Assembly: GCF_026151205.1 (NCBI RefSeq)
Contig: NC_087081.1
Span: 8,985,246 to 9,049,245 of the forward strand
Source of the DNA: Bolinopsis microptera
Taxonomy: Eukaryota; Ctenophora; Tentaculata; Lobata; Bolinopsidae
Length of the DNA stretch: 64,000 bases
Direction: 5' to 3'
Shown here: piece by piece, positions 4,601 through 63,423 of the stretch
Layout: each line of letters begins with the position of its first letter
Numbering within the stretch: position 1 is the first letter of the stretch
Position numbers and translations under genes: made by a program
The notes under the pieces: generated by a model
Told to the model about the DNA's origin: nothing
What the model saw: the letters and a program-made list of their open reading frames with translations, nothing else
Databases searched by the model: none

Positions 4601-4962
4601 GCTGGAAATTTGATTTTCGTCGGAAAAAGCTCACAGCAGAAATCTTAACAAAACGAAAAGTTGAATTTTTAAAACTCTGTCCCATTTTCAGATACGAAAA
4701 TTTCTGAACGCACATTTGACAGATTGGATGAAATTGTTGCCCACAAACCAATTAGTCAGTTAATTGATGATGATATGAAACCAAATTGGGGTACTGGAAG
4801 TCAAAATCTCGAAAAAAATTGGAAAATCATACTGTCCAAAGGATCCAAAGTAAGTCCCATACTTTGTCCCATTTTCAGTTTTTGGAGCTGAAATTTCCAG
4901 GGCTGAAATTTTACAGTTTCGGCCGAATTTCTGACCTGCAACCAACTAGTCAGTCACAGGGG
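1664..4962 (+). repeat. 366-bp satellite with 1464-bp higher-order repeat
   Basis: About nine units of 366 bp lie head to tail; equivalent points are 1766, 2132, 2498, 2864, 3230, 3596, 3962, 4328 and a diverged one at about 4694. Each unit holds an 86-codon open frame starting MKISER. Units 1-4 match units 5-8 variant for variant, giving a 1464-bp higher-order period. Every unit contains CTGTCCCATTTTCAG, or a close variant, twice. This is pyrimidine-rich and ends in AG like a 3' splice site, and it closely resembles the true acceptor of the ABCC pseudogene exon at 5665. The last unit decays into C/G-rich sequence near 4960. I regard the small ORFs as a satellite property, not genes. Confidence 0.9.
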
Positions 4963-20571: not shown

Positions 20572-23500
20572 TTAGTGTTCCTTACAAAAAGCATTATAAT
20601 ACCCATTCTCCGTGTCATTTGACCTGTGTTCGTGTATTATTCTATCAGTTATATGATTGAGTCTCCTAGACCGTGGACGGAGTCTGGGAGACTGCTCCAA
20701 CAGACTGGAAGTACGAATAGCCAGACACGTCTCCCTGATCACAATCCCCAGAATCTCCTTACTCACCACCTTCTCCTTCTCGTCAACCAGCCCTACTGTG
20801 TTAAACTTATCGTTCTTGTTCAGACTTCTCACGCTCGTTTTAAACAGCCCACTTTGTAAGGGGTGTATGAAGATTACCACACAACGAGAATCCTTGTCAC
20901 AGTCGAGACCCAGGGCAAGGTTGTTGATCAGGAAGCGTCGTGTGTCGTCAAAAGATTCAGCCCAAACCACAACAATCTTACTCAGAACTGATTTTTCTTT
21001 GCCACTATCCACAGGGACCTCCCAGAGAATATTCTCTAACAAATCCCGCTGATAATAAGACCGCGCACCAGATAACGGTACACTAGCCTCACTGAACTCC
21101 TGCTCAAACAGGGGCTGGGGCTCCAGATCAGGACTACACGGGCTATCCAGATCGCCCTGTGTAGGTATTAGGTTAGGAAGGAGGAAGATCATCTCGTTAA
21201 AGCTGTCTGAGTAGTAGGGGAAGGTAGGAGCAGGGGTGTCTATGTTCTTGTTGCTCCAGTTCTCAAATGGTTGCAGTCCCGTCCAGCCTTCAAATTTACT
21301 CACGTCGACCTGGTGATTATTAAAGTAATGTTACACCAGATGGTAACACGACCTGGTGATTATTAAAGTAATGTTACACCAGATGGTAACACGAAGGTTC
21401 CACAAGCTGATAAACATAGAGGTTAACAAACATAAGCTGAAAATAACAAATATTGATTTAAATCACAGAAAAACAGAAAAGAATGTGATTTATATGTAAA
21501 ACATGTAAAATGTAAAATATAATAACAGAAACACGATGTCACATACCAACTTATCCCCCAATTCCACAACAAAGTCATGGTACGCCTTGTTGGCACTGAG
21601 GAGGTTAGTGTTTCGCAGAATCTCCTTTACACTGTTCTGTCCAGTCCTCATTAGTAGCACTACCACCGTGTGGCAGTCACGTGTAGGAATGTCGTCCAGT
21701 TCCTTTAGTCTCGCTTGTAGTGCTGGACTGAGGTTAGGTGCGGTTTATTTGAGGTTAAGTGGGGTTAGTTTGATGTTAATACGAGATTAAACTTTATGAG
21801 ATTGTACACGTCTTGATCTAAGAAACTCTCAAACTCTGGCCTGTTAATTACATGTTGACCTGAAACAGGTCAAACTGACCTGTTTTTGAGGAGAACTACT
21901 GAAGGAGACTGATCAGAATCATCAAACATCTTGGGAGTGAGAATACCAGAGTGCGCGAGGAACAAGCGCGCACTGTCAATGTTAGACACACATTGCGGTA
22001 TTTGTAAGTCCGGGGGAGGAGGCGGGTCTGAGAGGTCACGTGTTCGCTCACTTTCTCTTTTTATTTCCTGAGTTAGGGGTGTTAGTGTTGAACTGCATCT
22101 AGTGCAAGTGATCTTACTAGTTCTTATATCTATCAGCACAAATTCGTTAACCGATTTACCACTGCTAATTCATTACCTTAAATAGGGCTCCTTTCAGGTG
22201 AATTTAAGTGAAATAAATACCAATAATTTGTTAAAGCATGTTTAAAATCAAATACAAATAATAAATAACACTATTCTAATCGCTATCTCCTAAAAGAGAA
22301 TCCCATGGTAAGAGGAGGACAAGGTCGAATAAGTATCCGAGAATGTAGAGTCATGCGGAGGGTAGGCACTTGAACTCTTCTCTTCTTGTTGGAATTAGAT
22401 AAAAGATTCTCTAAAGGAGAGTTAGAATTAACCCAAATATCAGGGACACGAATGACTACTCCAGGATTTAAGAAACTAAACTTTCGACACTGAAAACATT
22501 CAGATTCTTGCCAAATATATTTCGATTGTAGTCATCTCCAGTGACATTGAACCTAAAAAATGTTAAAAGGTTAGTGAAACTCAAACCGTTACAAAATTAG
22601 GAATCCGAAAAAGGTAAAAAGATCATATTAAGGTTTATGGAATATAGGTAATCCAAAGGGATTGACAGTATTAAGGCCAAAAGGTCTAAGAGAATTAAGC
22701 AAATGTATGTAGTTATTTTCTTTTACTTCAAGTGTACTGGGACTGCAATTCTCTAAAATAAAAGTTCTAAAAGTTTCATTAAAGTCTGTATGTACTCCTA
22801 AACCGTGGTCAATCAAGTGAACTCCTAGGCTATACTCATCACTAGTAATATCAAATGCTCTACCATCAACGATTTCATAAAATTTGGACCTGTGTCCGTC
22901 CATCCTTTTATGCAAGCTATTAATAGTCCTACCCACATAGTTTTTCTTACAAATCGAACACTGTACAAGATAGATGATGTTATAGGTCTTGCAACAACCA
23001 GGGGCTGATTTGATCTTTTTGCCATTTGATGTGATGGCAAACTTATTCATGACCATTTTACAACACTTGCAGTTTCTTCTGTGACAGGGTTCAGTTTTAC
23101 CATGTTTAGCACCTAAGGCAAGCTGTTTAGATGTAACGAGGCGAGATCTAAGCGTAGATCCCGTTTTCTTCACAAACTGAAACAGTTTATTTTTTCCTTT
23201 CGGTGCTGTGGTGGAGTTTGTGGCTTGCTGACTCTCACTTTCACTAAAACTACGAGTTCGTCTCAAGTGACCTTCGTATTTCTGGACAACATTCACCAAG
23301 TCATTGTCACTTCCATAACTAGAGATGACTCTGATTGGTATGGCTGATAGCGGGGATTGTTCAGATTCTCTAAAGTAAGATCTCCGATTACTTCATCCAG
23401 CTCAGCAAAGTTCTTGTTGTTCTCTGCGTATCTCCGGTGTTGTAATGTCTTGAAGTGAGCGTCCAGATCGCTGCAAGAAACTCTGCAGTTCTCACAGAAT

Positions 23501-26500
23501 ATCTTCCGTTGGGTTGGTATGAGGCGAGGTGGGGATTGAGTTGTGAGGGATCTGTTCTGAGCAGTAGGTTTGGAGTGGTCTCCAGGACTTATCTGTTTAG
23601 CCCAGGGTGATCCAGTACAGGGGTGGTCTGGGAAGCACGGAACTTCGGTTCTTGTCAGGAACTGAGGCTTGTAGATCTTCTCTTCATCCTGAATTACAAG
23701 AGCTGCTCTCTGGGTGATGACAGGAGTAAGGACAGGGGCAGGTTTAGGTTTGGGAGGGGAGGAGTTGTGTTTATTCACAATGTTGTAGTCTTCAAGCCAC
23801 GTTATGACAGCCACAGAAGAGATCAGCTTGGCTCCGAGAGTATGGATCTTGGTGAGAAGTCTGGGACAAATTTTAGCCTTGTTGAACACCACAACATGAG
23901 TGACAGTAGAACAGAAGAAGGGACTCCAGGGTAGGGAGATTGTTGAAGTGTAGGTTGTAGTTTCCAAACATTTTTAAAGCAATTAACTGTAGATGTTTCA
24001 CTTGATGATAGTTGAAACGTTGATATCCGGTAAGAATCATAGTCACGCTATATAGTTTCTCTCAGATATATAAGAGATGTAATGTCAGACCCCTTACTGA
24101 AAGGATCAAGAAAGCAAGATGGAAGATGCTTGGGCACGTTCTCAGAAGCGGTGATGACACTCCCGCCTTCTTATCTTTCAGATTTGCATGTTTAGGATGT
24201 TTTGACTATAAAGGAAGGAGGGGCAGACCTCGTTCAAATTTATTTGATTTATTATTAAAAGACATTATGACAAAACAAATTATTGTGATTGTAAATAAAA
24301 GATTTAGTTTAAGTAATTTCAACGATTTAGTGTACAAAGCTCATGATAGACGTCTTTGGAGAGTTGGAGAAGTTATGGGTGAGTCGAGACTACTCGGCCA
24401 CTCGATTTTATGATTTAATTTCTATTATCTTGTGTTTGCTGTAAATAGTTGATTAATAATTGCAAGTTAATGACGAAAGAAGAAAAACAGACAGAGAAAC
24501 TAGAATAATTAAGACCTGGATGAGCTGTTACTCACGTACTCTATTGTATCACAAAACAGAATTCAGAAACAAAAACAAACACAGAAACAGAATTCAGAAA
24601 CAAAAACAAACACAGAAACAGAAACAGAAACAGAAACAGAAACAGAAACAGAAACAGAAACAGAAACAGAAACAGAAACGGAAACAGAAACAGAAACATA
24701 AACAGGAACAGAAAGAAGACTTCAAAAGACCGGAGTGAGCTTTTCCTCCCATATAAAAGAGAAAGAGAAAGAGAAAGAGAAAGAGAAAGAGAAAGAGAAA
24801 GAGAAAGAGAAAGAGAAAGAGAAAGAGAAAGAGAAAGAGAGAGAGAGAGAGAGAAAGAGAAAGAGAAAGAAAACTACAAACTCTCTGAGTGAGCTGTTCC
24901 TCTCGTACAAACTCTCTGGTATCACAAAATAGAAACAGAAACAGAAACAGAAACTAGAATAATAAAGACCTGGGTGAGCTGTTCCTCCCGTACAAACTCC
25001 CTGGTATCACAAAACTCTCCCTTTTGCGGACAAGCTGTCTCTTTAAGTCTCTCCTGGACGTCTTCAAATGTACTGCGGAGGAAATTGTCAGGAGACCAGT
25101 TTATTTGTGTCGCTTCTCTAGACAGATATTTGGAAATGTGAATATGTGATGTTAGCTGACGACGTGTACGTGATGAAGCTAGCTGGTAATATGATTTAAA
25201 AAGAGATATGGGATATGGTGCCAAAGTTGGTAATACGTTTAACGATAATATCTATTTTGGCCAGACCATGACATCATTGAATGTTAGAATGGCGAAAACC
25301 AGTCGGACGTCGGTTGCTGTTTCATAAATCTGCCTTTTCAATGGCACATTGTTACCTTTCTCTTACGTATGCCTTTATAAGTTTTAAAAATATATCGAAC
25401 TAATATTGCGGGGTCAATAGGATAACAGTTGTCAGATAGTTTGTGATATTTGAGGTTATTGTGATTTAGGTTTTTTAATGGGGATTTATTTTATGTCAAT
25501 ATTTCACTACTTCTGAGTCTTAAATCCGCAGTTTTTTATTTGACATTTCCGCTTTTAGTACTTATTTTAACTCTTTAATGGAGTTTGCATTAGATTTGAT
25601 TAGATTTTGCTAATTAACTCTCGTGGCTTCTCCAGAAAAAAAGTCCGGGTAACGCCATTTCACTCAATAAACAAATCTCTCCGTTACCAATAAGCAGTGC
25701 CTTAATAGCTAAATATAACTTTATGAATATGCACAACCTACAATGCAGGTATTATCATGTAGGTCACCTACATAATACATACAATAACTAAATTACCGTC
25801 ATCTTTTCCTGATTCAAGTCCGGAAGTGTCTTATAAATAACTCGGTAATTGGCAATCAGTTGTCCCGAACTTCTGTTGAGTGTTGATGGTACTAAACACT
25901 TTTATGTTGCTTTTGATAAAATGTGCATATTTTTGTGGATTTTCTTCTTTTTTTCACATTTCTTAGTCTTATTCTATGTGCAAACGTTTTATACTTTGTA
26001 AAGGTATGATAAACCTAATAATAAATACTGGACCTAAATGGAGAAATGGAAATCATTAACGATATTATCGCTAAATTTGCTGATTTTTGGAAAGATAATT
26101 GTTTTATTTTACTAATGATCATTGAAGATGTCGAGTCGAATTCTCATCATTGGAGACAGTGAAGTCGAATCTGCGTTAAAAACGTACGGTTTTGCCACAA
26201 TCTTAAATGATCGATTCAACGGAGAAGCTGATGTTATTCTAAGGTTTGATTGCACACTGAGATTGTCCCAACTTAACTTCAAAATGATTAAGATTCTAGC
26301 AGTTTTGGTTGAAGTAGTCCTTAGGTTAGGTTTGGATTATTTATACTCAGAAGTAAGCCAATCAAACATTTCCTCTACCAAAATCTCTGCCCAGGAAGTT
26401 CCCTGGCTACACAACAGAGTGGATAAAACTACTTATGAGTAGTGTGGCCAGGAACTTGGGCTCTACTCCTGACTACGTTATCATCCTGTGTGGTAGAGGC

Positions 26501-29500
26501 GATTGCTTGCGGAGTAAGCAAGATAAGAGACCTGTCACATGTCCTGATCAGGTAACTTGGCTTGGATTCACTGGTTTAGCTAGTTTTAATTGTGGTCGTT
26601 TTATTTCTCCATCTCTTTTAGGTCTTGAAGGTTTTCTCAGCTCCTTGTTCTTGAATGTGATATCTAGAAGGTAAAATTAACAATATTGAAATACAAAGAT
26701 ATGGTCAATTAATAATATAGTGACTGTTATAACTTTATAATGATTTGCCAGTTCCGAAAGAACCTCTACTCGTTGGTCGACAAGATAACAAATGAAGTAG
26801 ACATGAACTCGGAGCGTTTCCTATTGCTCTCTCCTTTACCCATACATACTATGAGATTTGAGGGGGATGCTGGAAACAATTTTGACGGTATTATATTATA
26901 ACCTACGTCAGATTCAGGATGTTTCATATTTAGAATTTTCAATCTGATTCATTTGATTGAAAGAGTTCTTAGCGAGCAGTTAAGTTAACTTGGGAAGCTA
27001 CGACTTTTATAACAGTATCAAAACTACACAATCGCTTACACCATAATTGTCAGGTCTATCAATAGATAAGAGCGCTATAAAAAAGTATACTGAAAAGACT
27101 AAAGAGGTGGCTCAAAGGGTGGGAGGACAGTTTGTGGACTCTGCAGCTCTGTTAAATAAAGCTCTTGATGCTAACGTTGGTAGAGATGGCATGACTCTAT
27201 CCAGGGATGGTGAGTTAGCTTAGAGATAAGTAGAGGATAATAATAGGGTCAGTTAAAATACTAAAATACTAAAACACAACCCACCACACCCCAAACCCAC
27301 CACACCCACCCCTCCCTCTCCCCCTCCCCCCCCCCCCTCCCTCTCCCCCCTCCCTCTCCTCCCTATACCCCCCTCCCTCTCCCCCCCACCCACCCCCCTT
27401 CCCTCTCTCTCCCCTCCCCCCCCCCTCCCTCTCCCCCCCTCCCTCTCCCCTCCCCGGCCCCTCCCCCACCCTCTCCCCTCCCCGGCCCCATTGAACAGGG
27501 ATATTCTAAATATTTGCAACCTCTCAAACCTCACAGGTCACCTCAACTTGGCTGAAAAGCTGATAGAGCTGATTGAGTTGACAGAATCTCCGTTCCCTTC
27601 TTACGATAAAGTGAGTCATCAAATATATAAAGACTTGATAAACCTAATTTTTGCTGTTATAAACGTATCCTCACATTGGATCATTTTATGCTGGTAGTCA
27701 AAAATGTTCTGACAATCTTTAAGTACACGTATTTTAATACCAATAAGGATAGGCAGAATACAACCTAATTCAAAACTTACGTCACAGCTCGTTATTAAAT
27801 CTCCTAATCCTCCCAAAGATTGGAAATGACTACGAGAAAGAGTTAGGAGACATAAGCAAGACTTTCTCTCTAGTCCAGGCTGAGAATATCGTAGCTTTCA
27901 CCCACTGCACAACAGTTGATCAGTATTCTGCGTATATGAGCAAGACTCAACGAGGCAAAGTGTGAAGTGTGAACTACGTGGTAGTATCCGAGATGCTCGA
28001 CCAGTAAGGGTAGACATTATGGTACACATGTTTTAAGACATTGGGTAAGGGTAAGGGTGGGGTTAGGGTCCCTAAAGTTTACCCTAACCGTAACCGGTAA
28101 CCTTAACCCTAAAGTTTTCTACCCTTAGTCTTCGTGCTTCTTGGAAACTGCCCGAAGACATTTTTAAAAACACGTGTTAAACCCGATAAGAGGAAGTTTT
28201 CATGAGAAGTATGATTTCTTGAATCTTGGTAGACCGATATTCTTTATTGTTTTTGGTGTTAGTCTGAAGCAATTTTATTTTTACCATACATAATATAATA
28301 TAATTAGATTTTAAAACATTTCTGACCGTGAAAATCAGATGAATTTTACTGCAACGTTTATGTAATATCTTTAAACGTGGTGTTAGGGGGTTACCAGGGT
28401 GACGTGATGATACTAGATGATGCTACCTGGTGACGTGATGTTACCTGGTGACGTGATGTTACCTGGTGACGTGATGTTACCTGGTGACGTGATGTTACCT
28501 GGTGACGTGATGTTACCTGGTGACGTGATGTTACCTGGTGACGTGATGTTACCTGGTGACGTGATGTTACCTGGTGACGTGATGTTACCTAGTATCTTCC
28601 TTCAAGTGCACGTAGTTCCTATGCAGGATATCCGGCCAGCCAATAGTACACTCCCTAACTTCAGGCTGGTTTCTGCTAGTGTTCTCTGGAACCTTCGGAC
28701 GGCACACCTAAAAACATGTCTCCTGCCAATCATATTGGTACACTAATAACTACACGTCATATATAATCGAACTTATTGTCTCACAAATAGCTAGATTTCA
28801 TTTTCTTAGTAATAGTTGCCATTTTCATTGAGAGATAACCAATCCCAAGCAATTGCATCACGTGCTCGTTCTCGTTTAAACGCTCAGATTCAGAATTTCA
28901 AAGTTAAGAAGTGCATAATTTTAGCAACATAAGTTCAAGTGACGACAATTACGTGACTTACCTTTTGTCGAGGAGAGGATTTGTCAGTGAGAGGGTCTTT
29001 CTCATACTTTAACCAGTGGACTGACAGACTAACATCAGGATCTCTCAACACGATGTAGAGGACCGGGGTTTTATTGGAGGTGTCCGTACCTAGCTCAGCT
29101 GTAATGGATTATAATTACACATTATGATGTGACGTCACACCACGTGACATGACGTCATGCTACCTCAGGATCTCTCAACACGATGTAGAGGACCGGGGTT
29201 TTATTGGAGGTGTCCGTACCTAGCTCAGCTGTAATGGGTTATAATTACACATTATGATGTGACGTCACACCACGTGACATGACGTCACGTTACATCAGTA
29301 TCTCTTAACACGATGTAGAGGACCGGGGTTTTATTTGAAATGTCCGTACCTAGCTCAGCTGTAATGGATTATAATTACACATGATGATGTGACGTCACAC
29401 CACGTGACATGACGTCATGCTACCTCAGGATCTCTCAACACGATGTAGAGGACCGGGGTTTTATTGGAGGTGTCCGTACCTAGCTCAGCTGTAATGGGTT

Positions 29501-32500
29501 ATAATTACACATTATGATGTGACGTCACACCACGTGACATGACGTCACGCTACATCAGTATCTCTTAACACGATGTAGAGGACCGGGGTTTTATTGGAGG
29601 TGTCCGTACCTAGCTCAGCTGTAAGTGTAATGGATTATAATTACACATTATGATGTGACGTCACACCACGTGACATGACGTCACGCTACATCAGTATCTC
29701 TTAACACGATGTAGAGGACCGGGGTTTTATTTGAAATGGCCGTACCTAGCTCAGCTGTAATGGATTATAATTACACATTATGATGTGACGTCACACCACG
29801 TGACATGACGTCACGTTACATCAGTATCTCTTAACACGATGTAGAGGACCGGGGTTTTATTTGAAATGGCCGTACCTAGCTCAGCTGTAATGGATTATAA
29901 TTACACATGATGATGTGACGTCACACCATGTGACATGACGTCACGCTACATCAGTATCTCTTAACACGATGTAGAGGACCGGGGTTTTATTGGAGGTGTC
30001 CGTACCTAGCTCAGCTGTAAGTGTAATGGATTATAATTACACATTATGATGTGACGTCACACCACGTGACATGACGTCACGCTACATCAGTATCTCTTAA
30101 CACGATGTAGAGGACCGGGGTTTTATTTGAGGTGTCCGTACCTAGCTCAGCTGTAATGGATTATAATTACACATGATGATGTGACGTCACACCACGTGAC
30201 ATGACGTCACGCTACATCAGTATCTCTTAACACGATGTAGAGGAGCGGGGTTTTATTTGAGGTGTCCGTACCTAGCTCAGCTGTAATGGATTATTATTAC
30301 ACATTATGATGTGACGTCACACCACGTGATATGACGTCACGCTACATCAGTATCTTTTAACACGATGTAGAGGACCGGGGTTTTATTTGAGGTGTCCCTA
30401 CCTAGCTCAGCTGGAATGGGTTGTAAACACTAAATAGTCGTGAGATAATGCTGTTTATTAGGAATGAACTATTTAAGGAAAATAATAAAACATAACAATA
30501 TGTATATAACGACACCACAGACGTCACACCACGTGACATGACGTCACACCACGTGCCCAGCTCAAGATTTATGCGAGATTGCGAGCCAGACTCATCGCAC
30601 AAAATTTGTAAATAAATGAGGAAACAGAAAAAGTTTAACTTAAAAGTTGAGGGAATTAGGAACTTAACATGTATTTTATACTCTTAACGTGTATTTTATC
30701 ACTTGTTTATAGCGTGAAAACTTCGACGTAACGCGCGCGAGATTTTTGCCAGATTTTTGCGAGTTTCGTTTAAATCTCATAGCTAGGCTCACGATATCGT
30801 GAGATTCTCCGCGAGATTTCGGCACCCTCTTTCAGCACTACATATTCGGTCGCGCGCTTGCATTTTCATCGCTTTTCATCGCTATTCAATGTACTGTCTA
30901 AGTCTTAAAGGATACTAGTTGTTATAAGATCAAGATTCACAGTGGTTAGTACTATAGTTACCATGGTTACCATTAAAGGAGGTCTAAATCTCAAGGTACT
31001 ATTCCTGGCTACAGTCTACTCTATCTTTCTCAGAATATACTTGATACTGCCATAGGCATAGTGAATATTTCTTCATTAAAAGTTTGAGAAAGGGTCTCTT
31101 CAACTGGAGAACTGACTTATTAATCCTAGCAGGTAATTAACTCTGGATCCTCATCACATTGATTCCATTCTAAATTCTAGCCATAAACAAAACAAACATC
31201 ACCAGATAACTCCGTTTACAATAATTTGACATGTTCCAGTGTGAACGAGGCCTTCCCCGGACAAATCCTTAAATGCCAGTCTTCTCTAGATGAAGTACGA
31301 ACAGTATAATCTATCGGATAACGTATATTACAAGGTGCTCTGATGATAATTTTAGTAAAATAATTAATAATTGCCAGAAGAGTGACCGCTGACGAGACTC
31401 GAACCCGAGTCTACTGCTTGACGAGCGCGCCGTAAACCGTCGTGCTACGTAAGGCTTACCAAAATAACAATATGTAACATAATAAAATTCATAAAAATAC
31501 GCACGTAAATTTTTCGTTATTTATGGATCCAATAACAGTGACATACTTACAATTCTGAGAAATAAACATCGAGCGACATAAAGCGACATACTTACAATTT
31601 CGCTTACAAAGGGACTCGCGAAATCTTTTTAAATAGAAAATAATTTGTGGAGCAAGAAATCTTGCAGGCTGGGGGGGGGGGGGGTGTTGACTGGGGAGTA
31701 AATTTCGCCACTGCACGTGACACGTGAAAATCGCACTTTTAGTGTCAAAATCCAATCTCATCGCACTTTTTTTAGAATCTTGATAGGGGACCACGTGACA
31801 TGACATCACACCACGTGACATGACGTCACACCACGTGACATGACGTCACACCACGTGACATGACGTCCCACTACATCTAACATCTGTAAACCTGCAAGTC
31901 CAGGAGGAGGGTTGATGAGACAGAGAATTGTGTCACTCTCAATAACCAAATACTGTAATCTCGCCTCGTGTCCGGGGTACAGCTTGGACCTGAGCACAGG
32001 AGGAGTTAGATATGACGTGACGTCACACCACGTGACATGACGTCACACCACGTGACATGACATCTCGCCTCGTGTCCGCGGTACAGTTTGGACCTGAGCA
32101 GAGTTAGATAGAATGAAAACATTAAACAAATTGTATTTATTAATTATATTATATAGAAATATAAACAATCATTCAATCGTTCGAAATTAAGAAATTTTGA
32201 TTTATTTGAAACGAACTAAACGTACTACGTAGTAATAGCATCCTCACGATAATTTTAATTGGTACCACTGTGATTATAAGATGCCAGTTTAAATAACGTT
32301 TTAAATGTCTACCAATGCTCCAAAAGTTGCCGTTCTGACAAATGGTGCTGCTGGTTTAGCTGATCTCTGAGCGGGTTGTGATTATGAAGTTGTTTTAAGA
32401 GGAACTGTGCTTTATCTCCCACTCGCTTAGATATGGGTAGTTTCTTCTTGTCTTCTTTCAGTACTTTCTCGTGGGAGACGTGGTTGTAAGAGCATCTACT

Positions 32501-35500
32501 TGATATACCGGACTCTATTACCTGGAGTAAGGAGTATTTTAGCAAGTAACAACCAATAGAGTTAAAATTGGACCTGGCCTGGGACAACCCAAGCAACCCA
32601 TAGATTTGTATCTAGTTTCATCGATACGAATAGATACCGTCAATAAACGAAAAATTTATAAATCTCAGAACTAAAAACCACAATCAGAATAAAATGAACC
32701 TGAAGACACTTGAGGAGACTAACCTGGAGACACTTGAGGAGACTAACCTGGAGACACTTGAGGAGACTAACTTGGAGACACTTGAGGAGACTAACTTGGA
32801 GACACTTGAGGAGACTAACTTGGAGACACTTGAGGAGACTAACCTGGAGACACTTGAGGAGACTAACCTGGAGACACTTGAGGAGACTAACCTGGAGACA
32901 CTTGAGGAGACTAACCTGGAGACACTTGAGGAGACTAACCTGGAGACACTTAAGGAGACTAACCTGTAGACACTTGAGGAGACTAACCTGGAGACACTTG
33001 AGGAGACTAGGACCGTCAGTGAAGAGCTCAGTGTAGTTGAGACACCAGACAGTGAGACAGTTGTAAGCAGCTGCTAACATTGTGTGTAACTCCTCTCTGT
33101 GCAATGTACTCGGCTTGTTAGTCAGGCACTCTATATACTTACCTGGTTAACCATTTGTTAATTTAACTTTAAGTGTTATCAGTAGTTTCCAATCGTATTG
33201 AATATTACAAGAAAAACTTTCCTGAAACATTTGAAATAAAAGAAAACACACTGGAAAAAGATGATGTTAAAAGAAGTCTTAAATTGCTGAAAAGTAAATA
33301 CATTATTTGTAGTATCGACAAAGCTTCTGGTAATTTTTCATTTATTTGTAAAAAGTTTTATGTAAAAACTCTTGTCAATGAAATGGGTTTTGATCCTAAT
33401 ACTCTAGAATGTATAGGTAATGATACATATAAACCCTGTAGCGAAGACGAGACTCATTATGTCAATAAAATATCTGAGAGTCTAAAGGAGAGATTTAATG
33501 TACAAGTTGAAGATAAAAACTTGCGACTAGCACGCATCTTCTGGAACCCTAAGCTTCATAAGAACCCTTACAAGGCGAGGTTCATTGCAGGTGCCCGTTT
33601 TTGCGTTACGAAACAACTTAACGTCCAAGTTAACTGTTGTCTGAAACTTTTGAGGAAATACTTCAAGAAATACTGCGAGGCAATCTACAACAACAGCGGT
33701 ATAAACATGTTTTGGAGCATAGATTCCTCAAGTGAATTCCTTGAAGCTATCAAAAATAGCGATGTTTATAATATACAAGTATATGATTTTACTACTCTTT
33801 ATACCAGATTAGACTTGATTGAAGTAGAGAATATGATTAATGAAGTTGTTGATTTAATATTTTCAGACCGTAATAGATATATTTGTATTTCTAAAAGAGA
33901 CAGTAATACATGTTTCTTTTCCAATAAAACCTATGATTCTCATGCCTGCTTTAGTCAAGATGACCTAAAAGAGGCTGTTAAATTTATTATTTATAACACT
34001 TATGTCGTCTTCGGTGGGATTGTATTCATACAAACCAAGGGTATTCCTATGGGTGGAAATTCAAGTTCCCCTATAGCTGATCTCACTGTTGGCAAAAAGG
34101 AATTTAATTATATGAAACGTTTACTTCAGGAAAAGAAAATGGGATTAGCAAAGATATTATCCAATAATAAACGATATGTTGACGATTTATCTATTATTAA
34201 CTACCTTTACTTTCATAAATTGATTAAAGATATTTATCCTAATTCATTGGAGATGGAGCGAGCTGGTTCCAATAATAAAATCATTAACTACCTTGATTTA
34301 AATATTAATATTTCCACAGAAGGACTAGAAATATCAGTGTATAACAAAACTGATGATTTTAATTTTCATGTTGTATCCCTTACATTTCCTCACAGTAACA
34401 TCCCAACCGAGGTTGGCTACAACGCTTTTTCAAGTCAAGTTCTTAGATATGGCAATGTTTGCACTAGATTGGATATCTTTACCTCCCATCTTCACAAAAT
34501 ATTCAAAATTCTAATTGATAGAGGATATAGCCGTGATAGACTGATTAAAGGCATTAAACGTTGTCTGAGGAAATACGATAACGTTTTCAGGAAGTTCGGT
34601 ATTCTAGATGACCGTAACATTATTAAAGAACTCCCCTGATATCTTTTGATTTATTGAAACACGGGTACTAACTCTGCTAAACTGAACAAATTCTGAAACT
34701 TAGGTGAATAAGTGTACAACGTGCTAAACCGAAGTTCAGACTGACCAGTGAAAATGGGCGAGCGTACCAAGTGTCATTTTAATTAGAAGTTTTAGTCAGT
34801 GATTTATTATTGAAGCTTGTAATTACAATATCTAATGCTCCTATGAATACTTTAATTAATTGTTTGTCCCGTTATTCTTTTTCCTTCCTCTTTTCCTTGT
34901 CATCCCCTTTAGTTTTAAGATTCTTGCTATAAATGGCTACAGCTAACACTATTAATGCTAAGTACCAAACAACAAGTGGGAGGTGGATCGTTGGTACCAT
35001 TAAATCGATTTAACACCGCAATTCCAGTCGCAAGCCTGGGACCACTACTAGCATAGTCACAACATCTACAAAGCTGCCATATAGCCTGACTGACAATTTT
35101 CTCGACTGACTGACAATGTTTCTTCTTTTTTCCCCATTTAGAATACAAAGATTAGTACATTTTAGCTTATGATTAATATTATATTTTTACCTATAGTTTA
35201 CCTAGATTATTTTACTTTACTTTTACTTCACAGAGCTAAGTGCAGTGAGTGAAACTTATAGTTAATATAAAGTCCGAGATATCAGTTTTAACTTTTTGGC
35301 TTTAATCTTGGGATTCATGCAATAAATTTTATTACTTTTGGCTTTAGGATATTTTTTTACTGGATGTTCATTTTTATAGGTTACACTGAACAAATAGAAA
35401 TAGAAAGTTAAATAATATAACTGTGACCGAATTGATTAAGTACTAACATAGGTTGCTGATGATAAGTTGATAGCCACTCTGTATCCTCATATTGTACGGG

Positions 35501-38500
35501 AAGGTATTTGCCAGTCCACAGAGAATTCCAAATGGAACATACCTAAAACGGACTCAGTTCAATTTTAAAGCTTACCTAAATAAATTACCTTAGATAAGAT
35601 ATGAAAATTAGGAAGATACAAATGACTATTTAGCATTGTTTACGAATAAAAAGCAATCAGGTCATTCCCTTTCAACAAAAAAACAATGTTATGAGATAGC
35701 TAAGAAATTACCAAAACTTGATGTCCTGTTCGCTAGTTTTATCCAATATCTCACAAATCAACTCAATCATCTTCATCCAGACCCTCTGAAGGTTATCATT
35801 GAGATCCTCCACTATACTATGGTTACTGTTGGCTTTGTTCTCTAGAGTGCATTCCACGTCATCAGCTTCCCTGCTGTACTTGGTGACGGGTGAGGTCTGG
35901 TTCGAGTACTCTTCTTCTGAGTAACCTGGGAGAGTAACCTGGTAACCTGGTAATTGGTAAAGGGTGTAACCTGGTAACCTGGTAATTGGTAAAGGGTGTA
36001 AGTTGTAACCTGGTAACCTGGTAAAGGGTGTAACCTGGTAACCTGGTAATTGGTAAAGGGTGTAAGTTGTAACCTGGTAACCTGGTAACCTGGTAACCTG
36101 GTAACCTGGTAACCTGGTAACCTGGTAATTGGTAAAGGGTGTAAGTTGTAACCTGGTAACCTGGTAATTGGTAAAGGGTGTAAGTTGTAACCTGGTAACC
36201 TGGTAACCTGGTAATTGGTAAAGGGTGTAAGTTGTAACCTGGTAACCTGCTAACCTGCTAACCTGGTAACCTGGTAACCTGGTAATTAGTAAATATATAC
36301 TAACCAGGGTAGTGGTGCCTCTTGTCAAGTAGTAGGATGTAAAGCCCTTTCATTATCTGTGATTTGTTTACCAGATCATCTTCCTGAAATAGTGTTTTAC
36401 AGTCACGTGATACTGTCTTGTAGAACAGTAGTGATGTTCAAGTGGAAACAATTAAGTCATTAATAATTAATGACTCGTTGTGCGTTTAAAGCTAATAATT
36501 ATAAATAATTATTTGTAAAGCGCTAATCATACTATACATCGATTTCTAACTCCAAACCTAAAAAACTGGAGCACAATGGATTTTAAAACTGTATTAAAGT
36601 ATTAAAAATATAATTATTGAAAAATATAATTTTAAAACTGTATTAAAGTATTAAAAATATAATTATTTTAAAATATAATTTTAAAACTGTATTAAAGTAT
36701 TAAAAACATAATTATTGAATCGGTCAGAACAAGTATTATAAAATAAACAACGCTTCAAAATAAAAAACATTCAACTAAAGATTGAGATATTATAATATTC
36801 ATTAATGAAATACTTAGAGTTGTTACCTGAATAGAGTTCTCCAAAGCCACAATCATAATCTCCACACATTTAGACCATAACTCTCCCATTGTCTTTAGTT
36901 GTGCTGATGCGCTGTAGAGCTTACTGTCCCCTGAAAGGGTGTAAGTTGTAACCTGGTAACCTGGTAACCTGGTTACCTGGTAACATGGTAACCTGGTAAC
37001 CTGGTAACCTGGTAACATGGTAACATGGTAACATGGTAACATGGTAACCTGGTAACCTGGTAACCTGGTAACATGGTAACATGGTAACCTGGTAACCTGG
37101 TAACCTGGTAACATGGTAACCTGGTTTCCTGGTAACCTGGTAACCTGGTAACCTGGTAACCTGGTAACCTGGTAACCTGGTAACCTGGTAACCTGGTAAT
37201 TGTGCTGATGCACTGTATAGCTTACTGTCCCCTGAAGAAGTTAACATTAATCCTACAACCATTGTTCTGATTAAATATTGCAGCGTTCAATCTAATATAA
37301 AGCAATTTAGTAAGGGGAAAAGTGGCATTCCGTTGGATTTGAGTGTTCACAAGGATTTCTCAACGGAATATGGTAGTTAGGACCCCTACGAACATAATTA
37401 GACTTGTTGCCAATTTTGTATCTCAACGGAAACACCACTTTTACCACTTTTTACCACCTTTGTACCACCTGTCTGGTTTGCCAAATATCTTTAGTTGTGA
37501 ACGTCGTAAAAGGTTGCAAATTAACCTAGAATGTTTATCTTATCAAGGAGTAAAACTTTTGTGTGAAAAATTTTTACATTGGACAATCAGCTAATTGGAT
37601 AATTACCAATTAGTTAATCACCAAAAAAAGTGAAAATTTTTTATTGGCTCAAAATGATTGAAATCGTTTGAAACACGGAGAAATGTAGTTTTTAGAAAAA
37701 CTTCAAAAATTTTTCACTTTTTTTCGAGACTTGGAAAAAAGTTTGAAAATTTGAAAATATTTTTTTCCGCCAAAAGTGATCGAATTGCATGAAACGTGGA
37801 TAAAAATGCTTTGCAGAAAAACTTCGAAGATTTTTAGATTTGGGAATACTAAAATCATCAATATTTGAAGTTGGAGTTCAGTAAATCTCGACATATTTTA
37901 GTAATTAGGAATAGCTTAGCGGAAAGGGCTGAACCTGAAAAAGGTTAACCACACAATATTAGAGTTTCATAACTAATTACAATACAGCTTTATCAAATTC
38001 CACATAAAGAAACAGCACAAAAGGACCATTTAAGATCGAACCGATTTTACCTGCTGTACTATCATTTTATTGATTTCAATGATCAAAACCTCTGTACCGT
38101 CAATCTTGCCAATCTATACCGGGTATCTGAATGTACCGGACCTCTTATTTACCTCTATAATTAGACCCAGTTGTGCAAGAAATGCGATTTCTCACAGAGG
38201 GGTTTCTTTTAACTGTGCACTTTTTGTCACTCTCGCAACTCGCAAGAGGCCCGGTATTATAGGGGGGTATAGGAAGCGAGTGTAAATATACCTTCCATCA
38301 TCCACTGTGGCTTTTTTGTATTGTGAATGCGCATGCCGCTTCGTTTGCTATGCCAGATACCTCGAATAACCCCCATATGTAATTGCCAGGGTCGGGATAG
38401 AGCTGGAGATAGCATTGAAAAGTTGCTAGAAATAGCTAGATTTAGAGTAAACTGGTGGTAGCTGGGTGGTGCTAGCATGGATGTAGCAGAACGTAGCTAC

Positions 38501-44500: not shown

Positions 44501-47500
44501 GAATATAGGTTTTAAAAAAAAAATAGCGACCAAGATTCTGCATTTTCTCTGTCACCCTGAGCATTAAGGAATGTGGGGTAGTGATGAGAAACAGTTAAAG
44601 AACATATGCTGAAGAGATGGCATCATCAAAATGTATGAAGGTGGAGTATTTGAGGACGATTTTTGCATACCTATATTCTGGGGGCCGTAGTTTTTGATTT
44701 TTTGCTATTAAGTATACTCTAAACCATTTCAATTTAGTATCTGGAGCCATTGGCATCATCAATACAGTCTCAGCAACATATTCTGACTGCATATAACTGT
44801 CTGTGACAATTTTAGAACAACTTAGGAACAGATGTTTGGACCTATATTCTGGGGGCCCTGTTAAAAAATGGTATTTTTACAGGTGAAAAAAAAGTACACT
44901 TAAAAACCTAATAATTATTTTCAACTACCCAAGAAACATTTAAAGGGTTATTATGTACATATTTACAGCCCTAAACATGCTTAGAAGTAGTTTTAACACC
45001 TGTTTCTAAGTGCTCAAAAAACGACCTATATTCTGGGGGCCATATACCCGTAAGAAAAACCTTTCTAATTTTTTTGTTAAGTAGATCCACCTTGTGATAA
45101 TTATTCAAATTTCACAATTCTCAGTCCTGAGAATGATCCCCTGATCCCAGCTGGCAACTATTTGATTGGCTGTTAGCTAGTGTGAGTCACGTGACTGTTT
45201 GGTGAGTCACGTGACTATTTGGTGTGAGTCACGTGACTGTTTGGTGAGTCACGTGACTGTTTGGTGTGAGTCACGTGACTATTTGGTGTGAGTCACGTGA
45301 CTGTTTGGTGAGTCACGTGACTGTTTGGTGTGAGCCACGTGACTATTTGGTGTGAGTCACGTGACTATTTGGTGTGAGTTACGTGACTGTTTGGTGAGTC
45401 ACGTGACTGTTTGGTGTGAGTCACGTGACTGTTTGGTGTGAGTCACGTGACTGTTTGGTGTGAGTCACGTGACTGAAAAAAGGATATAAAATAACAGTCT
45501 TTACAAAACTTGACCATATTTGATATTTTACACAATGATTACATTAGGAAGTGCACTAGATAATCCGCCTCATTATTTATTGGTGAATTATTGCCGGGAC
45601 CGGGATTCCAAATAAAGGCTGATTTTGACCGGGACAGCATTAAGCCTGGATTCCGGTCGAGCCTTGGGCACCATTGCACCATCTTCATGCAATGGCACTC
45701 TGCGCAATGAAATTATTGCTCACTACGCTTAAAGCAGGATATTTCACTGAACGCTTTTTGATTTAATACAATTATAGTTGATGAGCAACAATAATTGTCT
45801 CCTTAATTACGAAACAGTTTACCCAGGACAGTGTTAGCAGCTAATAATAATTGTTACAGTTTGTTGATTATCTTGTTGATACGGCGCAAATCATACATAA
45901 GGCATTCCATTAATAGCTAGACGATCAAAAGGCCGATTTAAATAAAAGCGAAGAAGGAGCTGAGTTTGTTACGTAGTGACGTAATTTCATTTTACCATTA
46001 AGTTACAGTAAAATGAATAATTGATTAATGAATAATTTGTAATAATGCACAATATGACTTGAAAGGTGATAATTGGTGAATGCTGTCACTGGTTAGATAT
46101 TAACTTTGGTATTCTGTGCTTAAATGATAAATTGGGTGCAGCTAATTTCTCAGCTGAGTTTTCATTTCTGGCGATTAGGAGCTCAACTAAACACCTTATA
46201 CCCTTGAAAGCGTCTGGGTTCTGACAACATAACGGTATTTAAAACTGTGGTTTTTGCATAATAATGTTAGCCCTTGACATCCACCTGCACCTGGCCCGGG
46301 GGGGGGGGGGGGGGGGTCAGTTAATCCGTGCGTTACCAGACCTCAAGGTGACTTAATTGTTCGTTTTTAGCGGCTCTTCAGCCTTAATATAAACAGTTTA
46401 TGGCACCATTTGTTTAAATTTTACTTATCGTATTCTGAGATATCAGTTTCATTTACAATCTCACGTTAAAAGCTGTCTGTTTATTCTCTTACGTGAGCTT
46501 TAAAGGTGCATTCGTAGTTTGTTGTGTTCCTCTGAACAATGCCTACTGTTTAACTTTAAACTGTTCAAAGTACTTTTTAAATTCATTGATTCATTCTGTA
46601 GTATTTTTCAACTAACACTTTGCAAGTTTATCATGAACAAAGAATAAATCATGGGGTACCTCATTGAGAACCACACATGTGTAACTCAAAGTCAACCTGT
46701 TTGTCTCTTCAGACTTGTTAATGTAAGTATTATTTAGGCCACTTTTTTAGTTTTAAAGAATTTCTATGGCATGTACGTTTCTTGTGCATTTGACTGTAAT
46801 CAACGCGGAAGTTATATTTATTAATATTATGATAAACTGATTCCAGGCAGAGGAACCTAATTCCTCACATTATAATATTCACTACGCATTTACCTATTCC
46901 CTATTCTCAGGGCTCGATACTAGCAGTTATAGGACTCCTCGGCATCATCTTCAGCAGCTCCGTCATCTACTTCCTCCACCCCCGGAGAATCCGCCTGTGC
47001 CAGAACCTCTTCATCATAAACGTAGCAGTCAGTGACGTCATGTTGTCTATCGTAGGACTTTTCAGAGGTCTTGGTATTATAAACAGCAAGTTTGTGGGGT
47101 CACCTGATCACAGCACCACTCCCTACTGCGCGGCGTACACTATCTTCCTCAACTCGTTTGCAAGTTCTGGTATGCCAGCGCTGCTTCCCCTCACTGTGGA
47201 CAGAGTTATAGCTATAACACTGCCACTCCGACATAATTCACTTGTGACCAAGAGGACCAGTGCGGTCATGTTTGTGGTAAATTGGTCACCTATTTTTGCT
47301 CTACTATTTTACGACACAGTGGCTTATACCACTGGTTCCATAACAATAGAGTACTACGACAAATACCACAGATGTGTGATATCAGGACGAAATAACTACA
47401 TCGAGCAAGTCTGTCTCATCTTCGTTCCCTTCCTCCTGATCCTCCTCATGTATGGCATCATGCTCTTCATCATCGCCCGGAAGAGAAGACGGTGTGGATG

Positions 47501-50500
47501 GTTCCTGATGACTTCTACTGGTATCATAGCAACCAGCTTGCTGGCCTACTCCCCTTCAGTGATTGCTAACACGTGGGATGTCCCTCTGAGTTACGAAGTG
47601 TCACAAATACTGACTGTTACTGTTTATTATATTAATGGTATCGTTAATCCTATAATATACGTCTTGACTCATCCTGTGACACGGAAATATGTTACGAATG
47701 CGAATATTTGGGGATTTGGTGTTAGAAAACGTAATAGTAATTTTGTTACGTCAAACTGCTTGGTAGTTAATACGGTGTGCTTGCCTAATACTACCACTCA
47801 AGTTTGATATTAACGACTTAAAAACTTACAATTACCTGATGCATTGAAATGATTGTTATCTAGTACAATGTCACTTATTTTTTAAATGGTGTTTGTAAAA
47901 GTTCAACTTAGGAATGCCGGTGTTTTGCTTTGGAGGGCCTGTTATTGAATTTCACGTAAAGGAAGGGCCAGGGTGAATATTACGGTGCAGTGGTTTCCAC
48001 GAGTTACTGTGTTATTTAGTGAAAAGTCCACATTTAATTTTTTGTTAATTAATCAATGCATGTAACTGTATTTTAACTACCCTAACTGTAATCTATTAAC
48101 TATTAACTATTAATCTAAAATAAATGATCTTTACTTTTGTTGACCCTAAATCAAAACATCAAAAATCGCATAAAATCAATAAGTAGCGGAAACACAAGAC
48201 TTCGTTATCTGTTCTGTGTATTTTGATGCCTCTGATCCGGATCAACTCCGTTTAAATAAGACATTGGTTTCAAAGTTAACCTAGTTGCTCATCTCTTGAA
48301 GAAGAATTGCAGTTTATATTACCCAACCTAACCACTGTTATTGAAATCCTCCTCCACTCCTTCCTCAAGTAGTCCATCCTCCTCCACTCGTCCCTCAAGT
48401 AGTCCATCCTCCTCCACTCGTCCCTCAAGTAGTCCATCCTCCTCCACTCGTCCCTCAAGTAGTCCATCCTCCTCCACTCGTCCCTCAAGTAGTCCATCCT
48501 CCTCCACTCGTCCCTCAAGTAGTCCATCCTCCTCCACTCGTCCCTCAAGTAGTCCATCCGCCTCCACTCGTCCCTCAAGTAGTACATCCTCCTCCACTCG
48601 TCCCTCAAGTAGTCCATCCTCCTCCACTGGTCCCTCAAGTAGTCCATCCTCCTCCACTCGTCCCTCAAGTAGTCCATCCTCCTCCACTCGTCCCTCAAGT
48701 AGTCCATCCTCCTCCACTCGTCCCTCAAGTAGTCCATCCTCCTCCACTCGTCCCTCAAGTAGTACATCCTCCTCCACTCGTCCCTCAAGTAGTCCATCCT
48801 CCTCCACTGGTCCCTCAAGTAGTCCATCCTCCTCCACTCGTCCCTCAAGTAGTCCATCCTCCTCCACTCGTCCCTCAAGTAGTCCATCCTCCTCCACTCG
48901 TCCCTCAAGTAGTACATCCTCCTCCACTCGTCCCTCAAGTAGTCCATCCTCCTCCACTCGTCCCTCAAGTAGTCCATCCTCCTCCACTCGTCCCTCAAGT
49001 AGTCCATCCTCCTCCACTCGTCCCTCAAGTAGTCCATCCTCCTCCACTCGTCCCTCAAGTAGTCCATCCGGAGGAAACTTTGATGCAATGAATATTTTGA
49101 ATATGTCCTACCGGTAGGATATATTCGAATTTCAGCTTTCCACTAGACCCAAATTTCACTGTTTCGACTCAATTTTTCTTGAATGATCATCTTACAAGGT
49201 CACTGAGGATGACAGAAGACACGATCGAGGTACTGAAAATTCTATTCCCAAAGAAAGCTTTGATAAACGGAAAATCATCAGAATATAAAAAGAGATTTTT
49301 TTGAAGAGGAGCGTTTCTGCCGTTTCCTCGACCGAAATTTCGCAGTTATGCTTGAATTTTTAACCAGTGATCAATAAAAATCTTTAAAGTGAATTTTTCC
49401 ACAGTTTGAATACAATATCGTTCCTGTATTTTTACAATAAATATGTAGTTATCTTAGATAGAATAAACAGTACCTTCTAGGTCCTCTAGTGTGATAGTTG
49501 GATAACGTAAAGGTAAACAGATTATAGACAGTAAGATCTCTATAGCATCCCTTCTTAGCTCCTTAGCTGAGAAATCGTTCACGTGGTTACCCAGCACTAG
49601 TTCTATCATACTGGAGTAATAGATATGTGGTTAGTTTAGAAAGTAGGTTATTAATGAATAATTATTAAAGTTTTTAGTTGCCAGCGGTTAAATATCGACA
49701 GCTTATATTATTATTACTGAGAATTTTGATTTCGATTACGCTTTAACATATTGTATACGTAATTTTTAACTTATAAATTATAATCACAGACTATATTATT
49801 ATAATATATTAATTACTATTATAGTATTATATATTATAATATATTAATTTACCTGATGTAACTGGACACGAGAGCGTTGATTCCAGGGAGATCCACTTTA
49901 AAAAGTGACCCAGACTGCTGTAGTATCTTAACAAGAATATCATTAGTTTTATCTTTAACGTGTTTATCTCTCTCGAGCTGCCTCTTCCCGCACTTCAGTC
50001 CCTGCATCAGTCTGATAACGAACCTGAGGATTATCAGTTACACTGTCAGCTATATTATCAGTTACACTATCAGCTATATTGTCAGCTACATTGTCAGCTA
50101 CATTATCAGCTACATTGTCAGCTATATTGTCAGCTATATTGTCAGCTATATTGTCAGCTATATTGTCAGCTATATTATCAGTTACATTGTCAGCTACATT
50201 GTCAGCTATATTATATATTGTCAGCTATATTATCAGTTACATTGTCAGCTACATTGTCAGCTATATTATCAGCTTATTGTCAGCTATATTATCAGTTACA
50301 TTGTCAGCTACATTGTCAGCTATATTATCAGCTATATTGTCAGCTACATTATCAGCTACATTGTCAGCTACATTGTCAGCTACATTATCAGCTACATTAT
50401 CAGTTACATTGTCAGCTATATTATCAGCTACATTATCAGCTATATTATCAGCTATATTATCAGCTACATTATCAGCTATATTATCAGCTACATTATCAGC

Positions 50501-53500
50501 TACATCATCAGCTACATTATCAGCTACATTGTCAGCTACATTATCAGCTACATTATTAGCTACATTATCAGCTACATTGTCAGCTACATTATCAGCTACA
50601 TTATCAGCTACATTATCAGCTACATTATCAGCTATATTATCAGCTACATTATCAGCTACATTGTCAGCTATATTGTCAGCTACATTGTCAGCTATATTTT
50701 CAGCTACATTATCAGCTATATTATCAGCTACATTATCAGCTACATTATCAGCTACATTATCAGCTACATTATCAGCTACATTATCAGCTACATTATCAGC
50801 TACATTATCAGCTACATTATCAGCTACATTATCAGCTACATTATCAGCTACATTGTCAGCTACATTATCAGCTACATTATTAGCTACATTATCAGCTACA
50901 TTGTCAGCTACATTATCAGCTACATTATCAGCTACATTATCAGCTACATTATCAGCTACATTATCAGCTACATCATCAGCTACATTATCAGCTACATTAT
51001 CAGCTATATTGTCAGCTACATTGTCAGCTATATTGTCAGCTACATTATCAGCTACATTATCAGCTATATTATCAGCTACATTATCAGCTACATTATCAGC
51101 TATATTGTCAGCTATATTATCAGCTATATTTTCAGCTACATAAATGTCAGGAAATGTCTCACAACTACTACAAAACGAATGAAACTATCTTCATTAGTCC
51201 ATTCTACCAATTCATTCGTTATGAATGTTACTGGGGTAATCAGTTACAATACTCTTACAGTTGGCGTACTAAGAAGTATAATAATAAAATAACGAACCTT
51301 ATCATGTACGTCTCTTCAAAGGGATCATTATTCCGATTATGAGAGAAGATGTAGCACAGTGTACCCAACGCCTCAGCGCTAGCTCCATAGAACTGGTGAT
51401 TGTGATCAATAGTCCCAATAATAGCGGTACAGTCAAACAGCCACTCTCCAAACAGACGCAGCACACTATTACCAGTGGGTATGAGTTTACTGTCCAGGGG
51501 AACGTCCCGGTGTTGTCTGGTGTTTAGTTTAGAAGGTGCGCTGTGCGCGGGGGAGGCGTATTGCTCGTATATAGGCCTTTTGTTGAACATGAGAGCTTGT
51601 GATGCGGCAAGTTTGTCCGGACTTTCTGGTCTGTCTCCGTCGTATTCAGTGTTGTGGGGGAGTCCTACTTTGAGCATGGTGTTTACCATGCAGCTTATTC
51701 CTTGTATCATCTTCAGACAGACTGCTGGGTAGGCAGGCCGGGCTTGCTCAACCCTGGGGTAGAAGTACGTTGTTAATAGGGGCGAGGTAGATAATACGTT
51801 AAAAGTTGAGGATAAAGTTGATCTAGCAATACATCGTCAGATATATCTTATCATCGTAACAAATTTCAGGTAAAATCATGTTTGAAATTATTGAAAGCGA
51901 TTTATTTAAGAATAGAAGTAGTTATATAAGTTTATAAACTACTTATAAATAAGTTAACAGGCCGATAAAGAACAGACCGACTCACAAGAATTCTCTCTTT
52001 TCAATAACGTTTTTATTCTTGTATTTACCAGCGCTATTACAGCTGCTCTCAACTCGGTACCACCTTACTGGAGAGTTGGTGTTCATCAACTCTGCTGGGT
52101 TACCTAACAGCACGATAAATCGTGCCCAACATTGCAGGAGATTCTCATATTCCATCATGGAGATTATCTGAACAAATATCTGTGAGGGGTTAGAGACGGT
52201 TGCAATGGAATGTCATAACGATATTTACCATGGCAACTACAAATAGCAATCTACAAGAATCTGCAACAAACAAGGCACTGATAAAACTGAGTTATTATTG
52301 AGTGAATATATTTCCATTTCCCGGTCTCTAAAAGTCTATTTCATACTAACAGAAGGCAACTTCATGTGCTCGTGCATCATGTAAGTGTTCCTGGCTTCTG
52401 AACCACAATGTTGGCTGCCGTACATTCTCTTTAGGTGGTGGACTGTCAGGGTCTCACATATTGCCTGTGTAGTTGCAATCAGTTTACACTCTGGCTGAGA
52501 TTAGCATATAGAAAGAAACCACTACATTAGCCTTATATAACAGTTAGTCTAGATTAATAGTCTAGATTAATAGTCTAGATTAATAGTCTAGATTAATAGT
52601 CTAGATAATACAGGGTGGGCCAAAAGTCAGTACCCATACGTTGGGTCTTATACCACCGCCGTGTTTTATATTTGAGAGTTGTTGCTTTGCAGATGGTATA
52701 CTGTACCTACTTGTTCGAGGATTCCATCACCAAAATTCTAAAATTCGATTTTTGGGGGCCACACCTAATCAACATTGAATTGCTTATACTGGTGTTTGTG
52801 AACATGTTCTTTAGAGACGGAATCTCTAAAGAGACTCCGTTGTAACATATTACAATATTATGTCATTTAATTCGGAATATAATCTGAAAAGATGTATTAT
52901 GTACTTTCCACTCGCGGCAGACCGTCTCGATGTGAATGATTCCTTTGCAAAGCAGCTCAAACTCCTGCCACAACTCAACCTCTGGAAAACTCCTAAACAG
53001 TAAAAACTTTTTACATCAGATTTTAAACCTTGTACAAAATTAAATTTGTTATTTTGAAGGAAGCTAATTGAGTAACCACAAAGGACATAATCTTTATTTT
53101 AATGTTAAAAGTTCTTCTTTATTTCTCTTACTTACTCGTGGGATGCAACAATGAAAGCGTTGATTAGCAGCTTAATTGCTTGTTCAGCAACTTTGGGAAC
53201 ACTGTTTGGATGTACGTCTGTGTAAAACCATCGGTCCACTATGTACAACAGCATCTACGAAATGTTCATTTGTTGAGTAAAAATAGAAATATCATTCAAT
53301 TAGTTGAGCAATTGACAAGATTTAAAATATCTACGAGCAAAAATGTAGATTCCGATGAATGATCTAGAAATTTTGTTAAATTTTACATATTGTATCTTTG
53401 TATGACATACCTTCAGAATATTACTCCATAGCCAAGGGAAACTTTTCCTGCACAAGTTGCTATTGATATCATCTCCAATAGATTCACCACTTTTCTGTAA

Positions 53501-63290: not shown

Positions 63291-63423
63291 TGTAGTAGTG
63301 TAGGATTGTTTGAATTTCTTTTTGCTAGGTTTTATAATATTTATTTGTATATTTTGTGATTGTTTCTCCCGGTTTTCTTCCCTTGCGTAGCAAGCCCTGT
63401 CTCTTGTAAAAACAACCTCGAAA

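Follow-up and report, generated by a model that had tools for sequence, protein, structure and literature searches.

Duplications of intron-exon boundaries are one proposed first step towards new introns, and few cases have been found in the literature. The closest described systems are the 'mirage' minisatellites of amphioxus, which are known in the globin genes BflGb6 and BflGb9 and in Adh3; in that account they leave regular splicing undisturbed and show length polymorphism, and its authors considered that they are perhaps general in cephalochordates (PMC3087553). The minisatellite of the human gene IFI6 (6-16) has been reported to provide multiple splice donors (Turri 1995, via PMC4526556), with two of the downstream repeats said to function in this way (PMC4526556). 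In human paralogues, minisatellite expansion has been described as altering both exons and introns, in some cases via cryptic splice sites (PMC2812944). Intron gain by tandem duplication is represented in PMC4974935 by the Rogers model, a boundary duplication in a potato RdRp gene and a 24 bp AGGT segment in fission yeast.

Arrays comparable to the amphioxus mirages were found in the ctenophore Bolinopsis microptera, in a stretch of 64,000 nucleotides of contig NC_087081.1 (hereafter the window, to which all positions refer unless another block is named). The window contains an orthologue of RALGAPB on the minus strand (54825-20572), whose sequence-based model comprises 25 exons and 1463 aa. 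The arrays at its junctions are probably 'mirage' minisatellites, that is, chance local duplications that are tolerated since splicing hides the copies. The exons (E) and introns (I) of the model were built from frame continuity, GT-AG sites and intron phases, with exon edges predicted in this way and the edge of E17 ambiguous by nature. The frame is open throughout, and GT-AG sites with matching phases are present in 24/24 introns. The best PDB match of the protein is human RalGAP beta (9qwp_B, E 2.2e-53), which is strong at residues 509-1461 and preceded by two weak N-terminal stretches, and homology to RalGAP beta extends over most of the protein; the RalGAP alpha-2 chain gave a much weaker match (E 1.8e-06). 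The match to 9qwp_B and the open 25-exon model bear out the identification of this gene in a first-pass annotation of the same DNA, whose exons 13, 18, 20, 21, 22, 23 and 27 appear to correspond to E13, E17, E19, E20, E21, E22 and E25 when paired by unit length. A Pfam search with the last exon returned no family. As a side observation, E17 (33142, minus strand) begins with GTAAGT and E16 (35542, minus strand) with GTATGT, directly after the acceptor AG, which we take to be the form of recursive-splicing sites.

All 48 exon edges of the gene were compared with their adjoining introns at an alignment score of at least 30. At five of the 48 edges, at least 18 exon bases together with the splice site are copied in the adjoining intron (22-67 bases), and both boundary types are affected: the donors of E17 (I17, 22 exon bases) and E22 (I22, 46) and the acceptors of E13 (I12, 35), E19 (I18, 32) and E20 (I19, 67). 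Three further arrays reach a junction and take in 4-5 exon bases (I14 acceptor, 5; I21 donor, 5; I24 acceptor, 4), the I10 acceptor, I11 donor and I14 donor gave matches without exon bases, and two arrays end short of the acceptor, by 6 bases in I10 and by 1 base in I23. When exon bases only were compared in a separate analysis, the edges of E13, E17, E19, E20 and E22 scored above all 46 edges from other introns, as did the short match at the I14 acceptor. The first-pass annotation had proposed seven exons whose edges are included in a repeat unit; five of these hold with 22-67 exon bases, and the other two, E21 and E25, share only 4-5. It had also placed arrays at the splice sites of introns 10, 14 and 16, which was recovered for I10 (6 bases short) and I14 (meeting the acceptor), but not for I16 (33143-35447), where no array was present at a score of at least 50 and where the earlier numbering may differ.

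The copies vary in their arrangement along the minus strand. In the region of E13 (36827..37236), the exon itself (36827-36930) is accompanied by a single copy of its first 35 bases with the acceptor at 37197-37236 (37/40 identical), and a (GTTACCAG)n array lies between the two at 36948-37199 (array listing and edge scan). The edge scan revealed a similar arrangement at E19 (31892..32110), in which the exon (31892-31989) and a copy of its acceptor with 32 exon bases (32062-32110) are separated by CACGTG 20-mers (32013-32061). At E20 (28962..30426; array listing and edge scan), the exon (28962-29098) is flanked on the acceptor side by an array with a 130 bp unit, which consists of the acceptor, the first 67 exon bases and CACGTG sequence and has 10 upstream copies. 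At the donor side, the end of E17 together with its donor forms a 24 bp repeat unit (32697..33009; array listing and edge scan), and three copies of the end of E22 (24970-25117), comprising the last 46, 45 and 27 exon bases, lie among hexamer arrays in I22 (24486..25117), with the donor GT present in two of the three. The arrays with little or no exon sequence include I14, which is almost entirely a (GTTACCAG)n array whose end lies 8 bp from the acceptor (35926..36304), and an 18 bp array with unit GTAACATCACGTCACCAG that starts at the E21 donor (28418..28590), both from the array listing and edge scan. They also include a 43 bp unit in 2.1 copies up to the E25 acceptor, with 4 exon bases in common (21306..21394), and a 21 bp unit whose end lies 1 base before the E24 acceptor (21729..21779).

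The arrays at E17 and E20 have properties that could be read as functional. Counting the exon's own donor, the E17 array offers 13 candidate sites, 10 of the form CAG/GTT and 3 of the form CAA/GTT (slash at the junction), with GT in 13/13, and all units are open in frame with 8 aa per unit. The upstream copies at E20 keep AG in 10/10, and each leads to a stop after 24 residues in the phase of exon 19. These arrays might therefore provide tunable splicing, with E17 lengthening the protein in steps of 8 aa and the E20 copies serving as decoys whose use leads into a stop. However, the spliced form without E17 array residues aligns gap-free with human RalGAP beta across this junction, and near-identical copies need no selection, so that a functional role of this kind appears extremely improbable.

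The first-pass annotation had described the repeat units as unrelated and independent in origin, which applies to some of them. The repeats of E17 and I21 were found at their own locus only: 22 bases taken from the E17 repeat have 12 matches with at most 1 mismatch at a single locus in the assembly, and a 29-base piece of the 18 bp I21 repeat has 8 exact matches, all at I21. These two arrays are therefore probably local in origin. On the other hand, GTTACCAG units are common to the last array of I12 and to I14, and the CACGTG 20-mer is present in both I18 and I19. Both families are dispersed genome-wide, with 1547 occurrences of a 16-mer of GTTACCAG units (reversed control, 0) and 219 of the CACGTG 20-mer (control, 0), whereas a 20-base composite of GTTACCAG has 6 exact matches in the genome, all in I12 and I14. 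Tandem repeats account for 19% of the window, 10% of a 200 kb block and 5% of a 40 kb block.

Several other features were observed in and around the gene. The sequence GTCACGTG occurs 56 times in the window on both strands, versus 0.8 expected, mostly inside arrays of different units (19018, 29032, 31790 and 45180). A 366 bp unit in 8.9 copies with 96% matches is located at 1674-4956, near an ABC-transporter exon (6233-6874), and I12 contains a further array (48346-49069), of a 30 bp unit repeated 24 times, with long open frames on both strands. Also in I12, on the opposite strand to RALGAPB, an uninterrupted rhodopsin-family receptor ORF (46836-47807, plus strand; 7tm_1, E 1e-13) is likely a nested gene; in the ctenophore Hormiphora californensis, many nested intronic genes have been reported, at a rate called similar to primates (PMC8527503). 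ORFs nested in I21 (26119-26674, plus strand) resemble a GDSL/IAH1-type esterase by eye, and Pfam assigned no family to the piece at 26119-26442. By eye, the ORFs at 33173-34639 (plus strand, I16) and 22628-23392 (minus strand, I22) resemble a Penelope-like reverse transcriptase and a GIY-YIG part, and Pfam gave no family for either. Beside the gene, reverse-transcriptase ORFs lie at 57739-60884 (plus strand) and 62015-63331 (minus strand); RVT_1 was matched at 59040-60884 (E 1e-23) and 62015-63331 (E 2.8e-20), and Pfam gave no RVT_1 match for 57739-59169.

Tandem duplication of AGGT segments had also been put forward as a source of new introns, and this was examined by comparing 47 introns of RALGAPB and POLR3A, the latter gene from another contig, with mismatched donor-acceptor pairs. 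I10 (50015..51299, minus strand; 12 bp array inside at 50030-51141) has an 11-base exact direct repeat, AGGTTCGTTAT, running through both junctions (51289-51299 and 50015-50025) and reading AG/GTTCGTTAT, and I17 has an 8-base exact repeat across its junctions. Introns with a repeat of at least 8 bases numbered 2 versus 0.24 expected, and those with at least 9 bases 1 versus 0.00, no mismatched donor-acceptor pair sharing 9 or more bases. By its sequence, I10 may be a gained AGGT intron, and it alone gives this origin clear support. Apart from I10 and I17, the 47 introns resemble mismatched pairs (repeats of at least 5 bases in 9 versus 7.4 expected).

A wider reading would regard the arrays as new introns in the making, either through tandem duplication of AGGT segments or through the spread of the GT-to-AG GTTACCAG repeat. 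The repeat at I10, the 8 bases at I17, the nearly complete occupation of I14 by (GTTACCAG)n and the genome-wide occurrence of the GTTACCAG family are in its favor, but the remaining introns behave as mismatched pairs, and what is copied at the edges of E13, E19 and E20 is a single boundary of an intron that is already there; as a general explanation it is very unlikely. A particular form of this idea concerns GTTACCAG itself, whose 8-base unit runs from GT to AG, so that its arrays would be removable by splicing in any whole number of units. This family might be a dispersed, spreading minisatellite that, together with the boundary-copying arrays, keeps adding introns or lengthening them at almost no cost in fitness, a proposal that we regard as very improbable indeed. 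If true, GTTACCAG would be a repeat whose form keeps it out of sight of the mRNA.

Tolerance through splicing, the reading preferred here, could operate as follows. Local tandem duplications would arise at many places in a repeat-rich genome, and one that spans a junction would leave the outermost original splice site present. As this site could still be used by the spliceosome, the normal mRNA would still be makeable and the change would be close to neutral, so that junction duplications would outlive exon-internal ones. The array would then grow via slippage or unequal exchange, giving the intron extra copies of the exon edge with its GT or AG. Selection would be expected to remove exon-internal duplications and to spare intron-internal ones, with junctions intermediate. 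Moreover, the interleaving of the edge copies at E13, E19 and E20 with dispersed minisatellites is suggestive of template switching, or of a break having been repaired with such DNA.

A gradient of this form was observed. In RALGAPB, the share of 40-mer windows that have a near copy is 21.9% in introns, 7.5-12.5% across junctions and 1.3% in exon interiors, and the repeat cover rises from exon to intron, reaching 35-45% at 100-400 bp and then 27-29% at 400-1000 bp. Junction-centred windows are covered at 3/48 junctions versus 8.0 expected if junctions behaved as their own introns; because arrays expand inside introns, this test may overstate the expected number, and a test of junction-spanning seeds was added. 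The same order of exon, junction and intron is found in POLR3A and around 92 predicted exons (below), and the suggestion of the first-pass annotation that only such duplications persist, their copies being hidden by splicing, fits this gradient.

Its other suggestion was that junctions are preferred substrates for duplication, which might be promoted by AG/GT or donor sequence or by co-transcriptional structures at splice sites. RALGAPB itself shows a mild excess that keeps this idea alive, with P values that are optimistic because the gene was picked for its pattern. Arrays within 10 bp of a junction numbered 9/26 versus 4.5 expected when each array stayed in its own intron but could extend 70 bp into exon sequence (P 0.005), and versus 2.4 or 1.8 under two other nulls. 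Covered intron ends numbered 9/48 versus 5.0 by circular shift (P 0.005). Seeds with at least 18 exon bases numbered 5 versus 1.49 expected (P 0.005) and those with at least 5 exon bases 7 versus 2.63 (P 0.004), in a test for which the observed counts, as well as the lengths assigned to three of the RALGAPB edge duplications, were entered manually. For arrays crossing a junction (4/26), the expected number was 3.8 within the own intron when 70 bp of exon entry was allowed, 1.9 gene-wide and 0.16 if arrays were confined to introns. As the outcome of array placement varies with the null, the permutation was not relied on alone.

A second gene came from a different contig, in a 200 kb block that had been chosen before its content was known. 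In this block, a complete POLR3A gene was modelled (24 exons, 1383 aa), a 260 aa piece of which matches RPC1 (E 3.9e-111); the gene was noticed via its donor-word arrays and so leans towards the pattern. The end of its exon 16 with the donor is copied four times (51, 51, 36 and 31 exon bases), and introns 5 and 12 each have an array that begins at the donor; the arrays bearing splice sites in introns 16 and 12 lie at 19196-19537 and 31906-32708 of the block, respectively. Near-copy 40-mers again decrease from intron (14.7%) to junction (4.3%) and exon (0.7%), and junction-centred windows are covered at 2/46 versus 7.9 expected if junctions were like their own introns. Despite the way in which the gene was noticed, POLR3A has no excess of covered intron ends (6/46 versus 5.6) or of seeds (1 versus 1.99, or 2 versus 3.17 at 5 or more exon bases, leaving out a 21-base copy near the intron 4 acceptor that lacks the junction), which argues against a preference for junctions. 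Its repeat cover starts at 12-17% over the first 10 bases of the intron, climbs to about 40% between 100 and 200 bp from the junction and drops to 0-5% between 400 and 1000 bp, so that junction cover exceeds deep-intron cover. Repeats are concentrated near exons, within 400 bp of them in POLR3A, or in short introns rather than at the junction as such; this crowding counts in favor of junction preference, and it also means that the deep intron is not a uniform baseline.

Beyond these two genes, 141 exons were predicted ab initio in 240 kb of the 265 Mb genome outside the window. Of these, 92 entered the analysis; the other 49 lay in the POLR3A region, had a repeat-rich middle or were shorter than 60 bp. 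The exon finder is rough, with 28 predictions in the reversed control (roughly 1 in 5 false) and recovery of 5/24 RALGAPB donors. Inside these exons, whose selection required a repeat-poor middle, repeat cover is 0-1%; it is 1-2% over the 25 bases at the exon ends, 2% over the 10 intron bases next to the junction and 3-10% beyond. No junction peak was seen around the 92 exons, the cover forming a slope instead. The overlap of arrays with splice sites, which had been proposed as a check, thus points to chance in this sample.

The content of the repeat units bears on the same question. With the window included, the donor words GTAAGT/GTGAGT are present in 13/149 arrays versus 4.3 for random non-repeat stretches, an approximately threefold enrichment, and reversed donor words are not enriched (1 versus 4.8). 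CCAGGT is the top hexamer (10/157 arrays versus 1.55). Without the window (240 kb, 108 arrays), donor words are found in 10 arrays versus 2.9, five of the 10 being in POLR3A, and CCAGGT, GTGAGT and GTAAGT rank 18, 20 and 32 of 2080 hexamers. Nevertheless, AGGT is not enriched in the 149 arrays (28 versus 23.3, P 0.14), and the top hexamer without the window is AGTTAC/GTAACT, which is not a splice site. These data suggest a donor bias in the repeat units, though not a specific one. Given the absence of a junction peak in RALGAPB, POLR3A and the 92 exons, a preference for junctions as substrates is unlikely to account for the arrays, and chance duplication with tolerance through splicing remains the best explanation.

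In comparison with known systems, the RALGAPB arrays share with the amphioxus mirages, as these have been described, a minisatellite-like duplication of the intron-exon boundary at the 5' or 3' edge, unit lengths that differ between genes, and AG or GT in many, though not all, units (13/13 at E17, 10/10 at E20 and 2/3 at E22). They differ from the published mirages in lying in a different, smaller genome, in affecting five edges of one gene and in the interleaving of some edge copies with genome-wide minisatellite families. The E17 array is like the reported IFI6 minisatellite in that each repeat unit offers a splice donor, here a predicted one, whereas the 24 bp repeat with 13 candidate donors was found in RALGAPB only. 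As in the Rogers, potato and fission-yeast cases summarized above, a duplicated boundary or AGGT segment could supply splice sites, and I10 has the expected repeat. The human internal repeats described in paralogues sit in recent segmental duplicates, whereas the RALGAPB arrays are at the edges of a conserved gene. Genes with edge arrays carry a warning for gene predictors, since many of the splice sites they present are equally good. With several recent, readable cases in a second animal genome, direct measurement should become feasible of how often such duplications arise, how well they are tolerated and how they may lead to intron gain. The kind of array is thus already known from amphioxus; what is new is its occurrence in a second genome, with five clear cases in one gene and with interleaved dispersed minisatellites.
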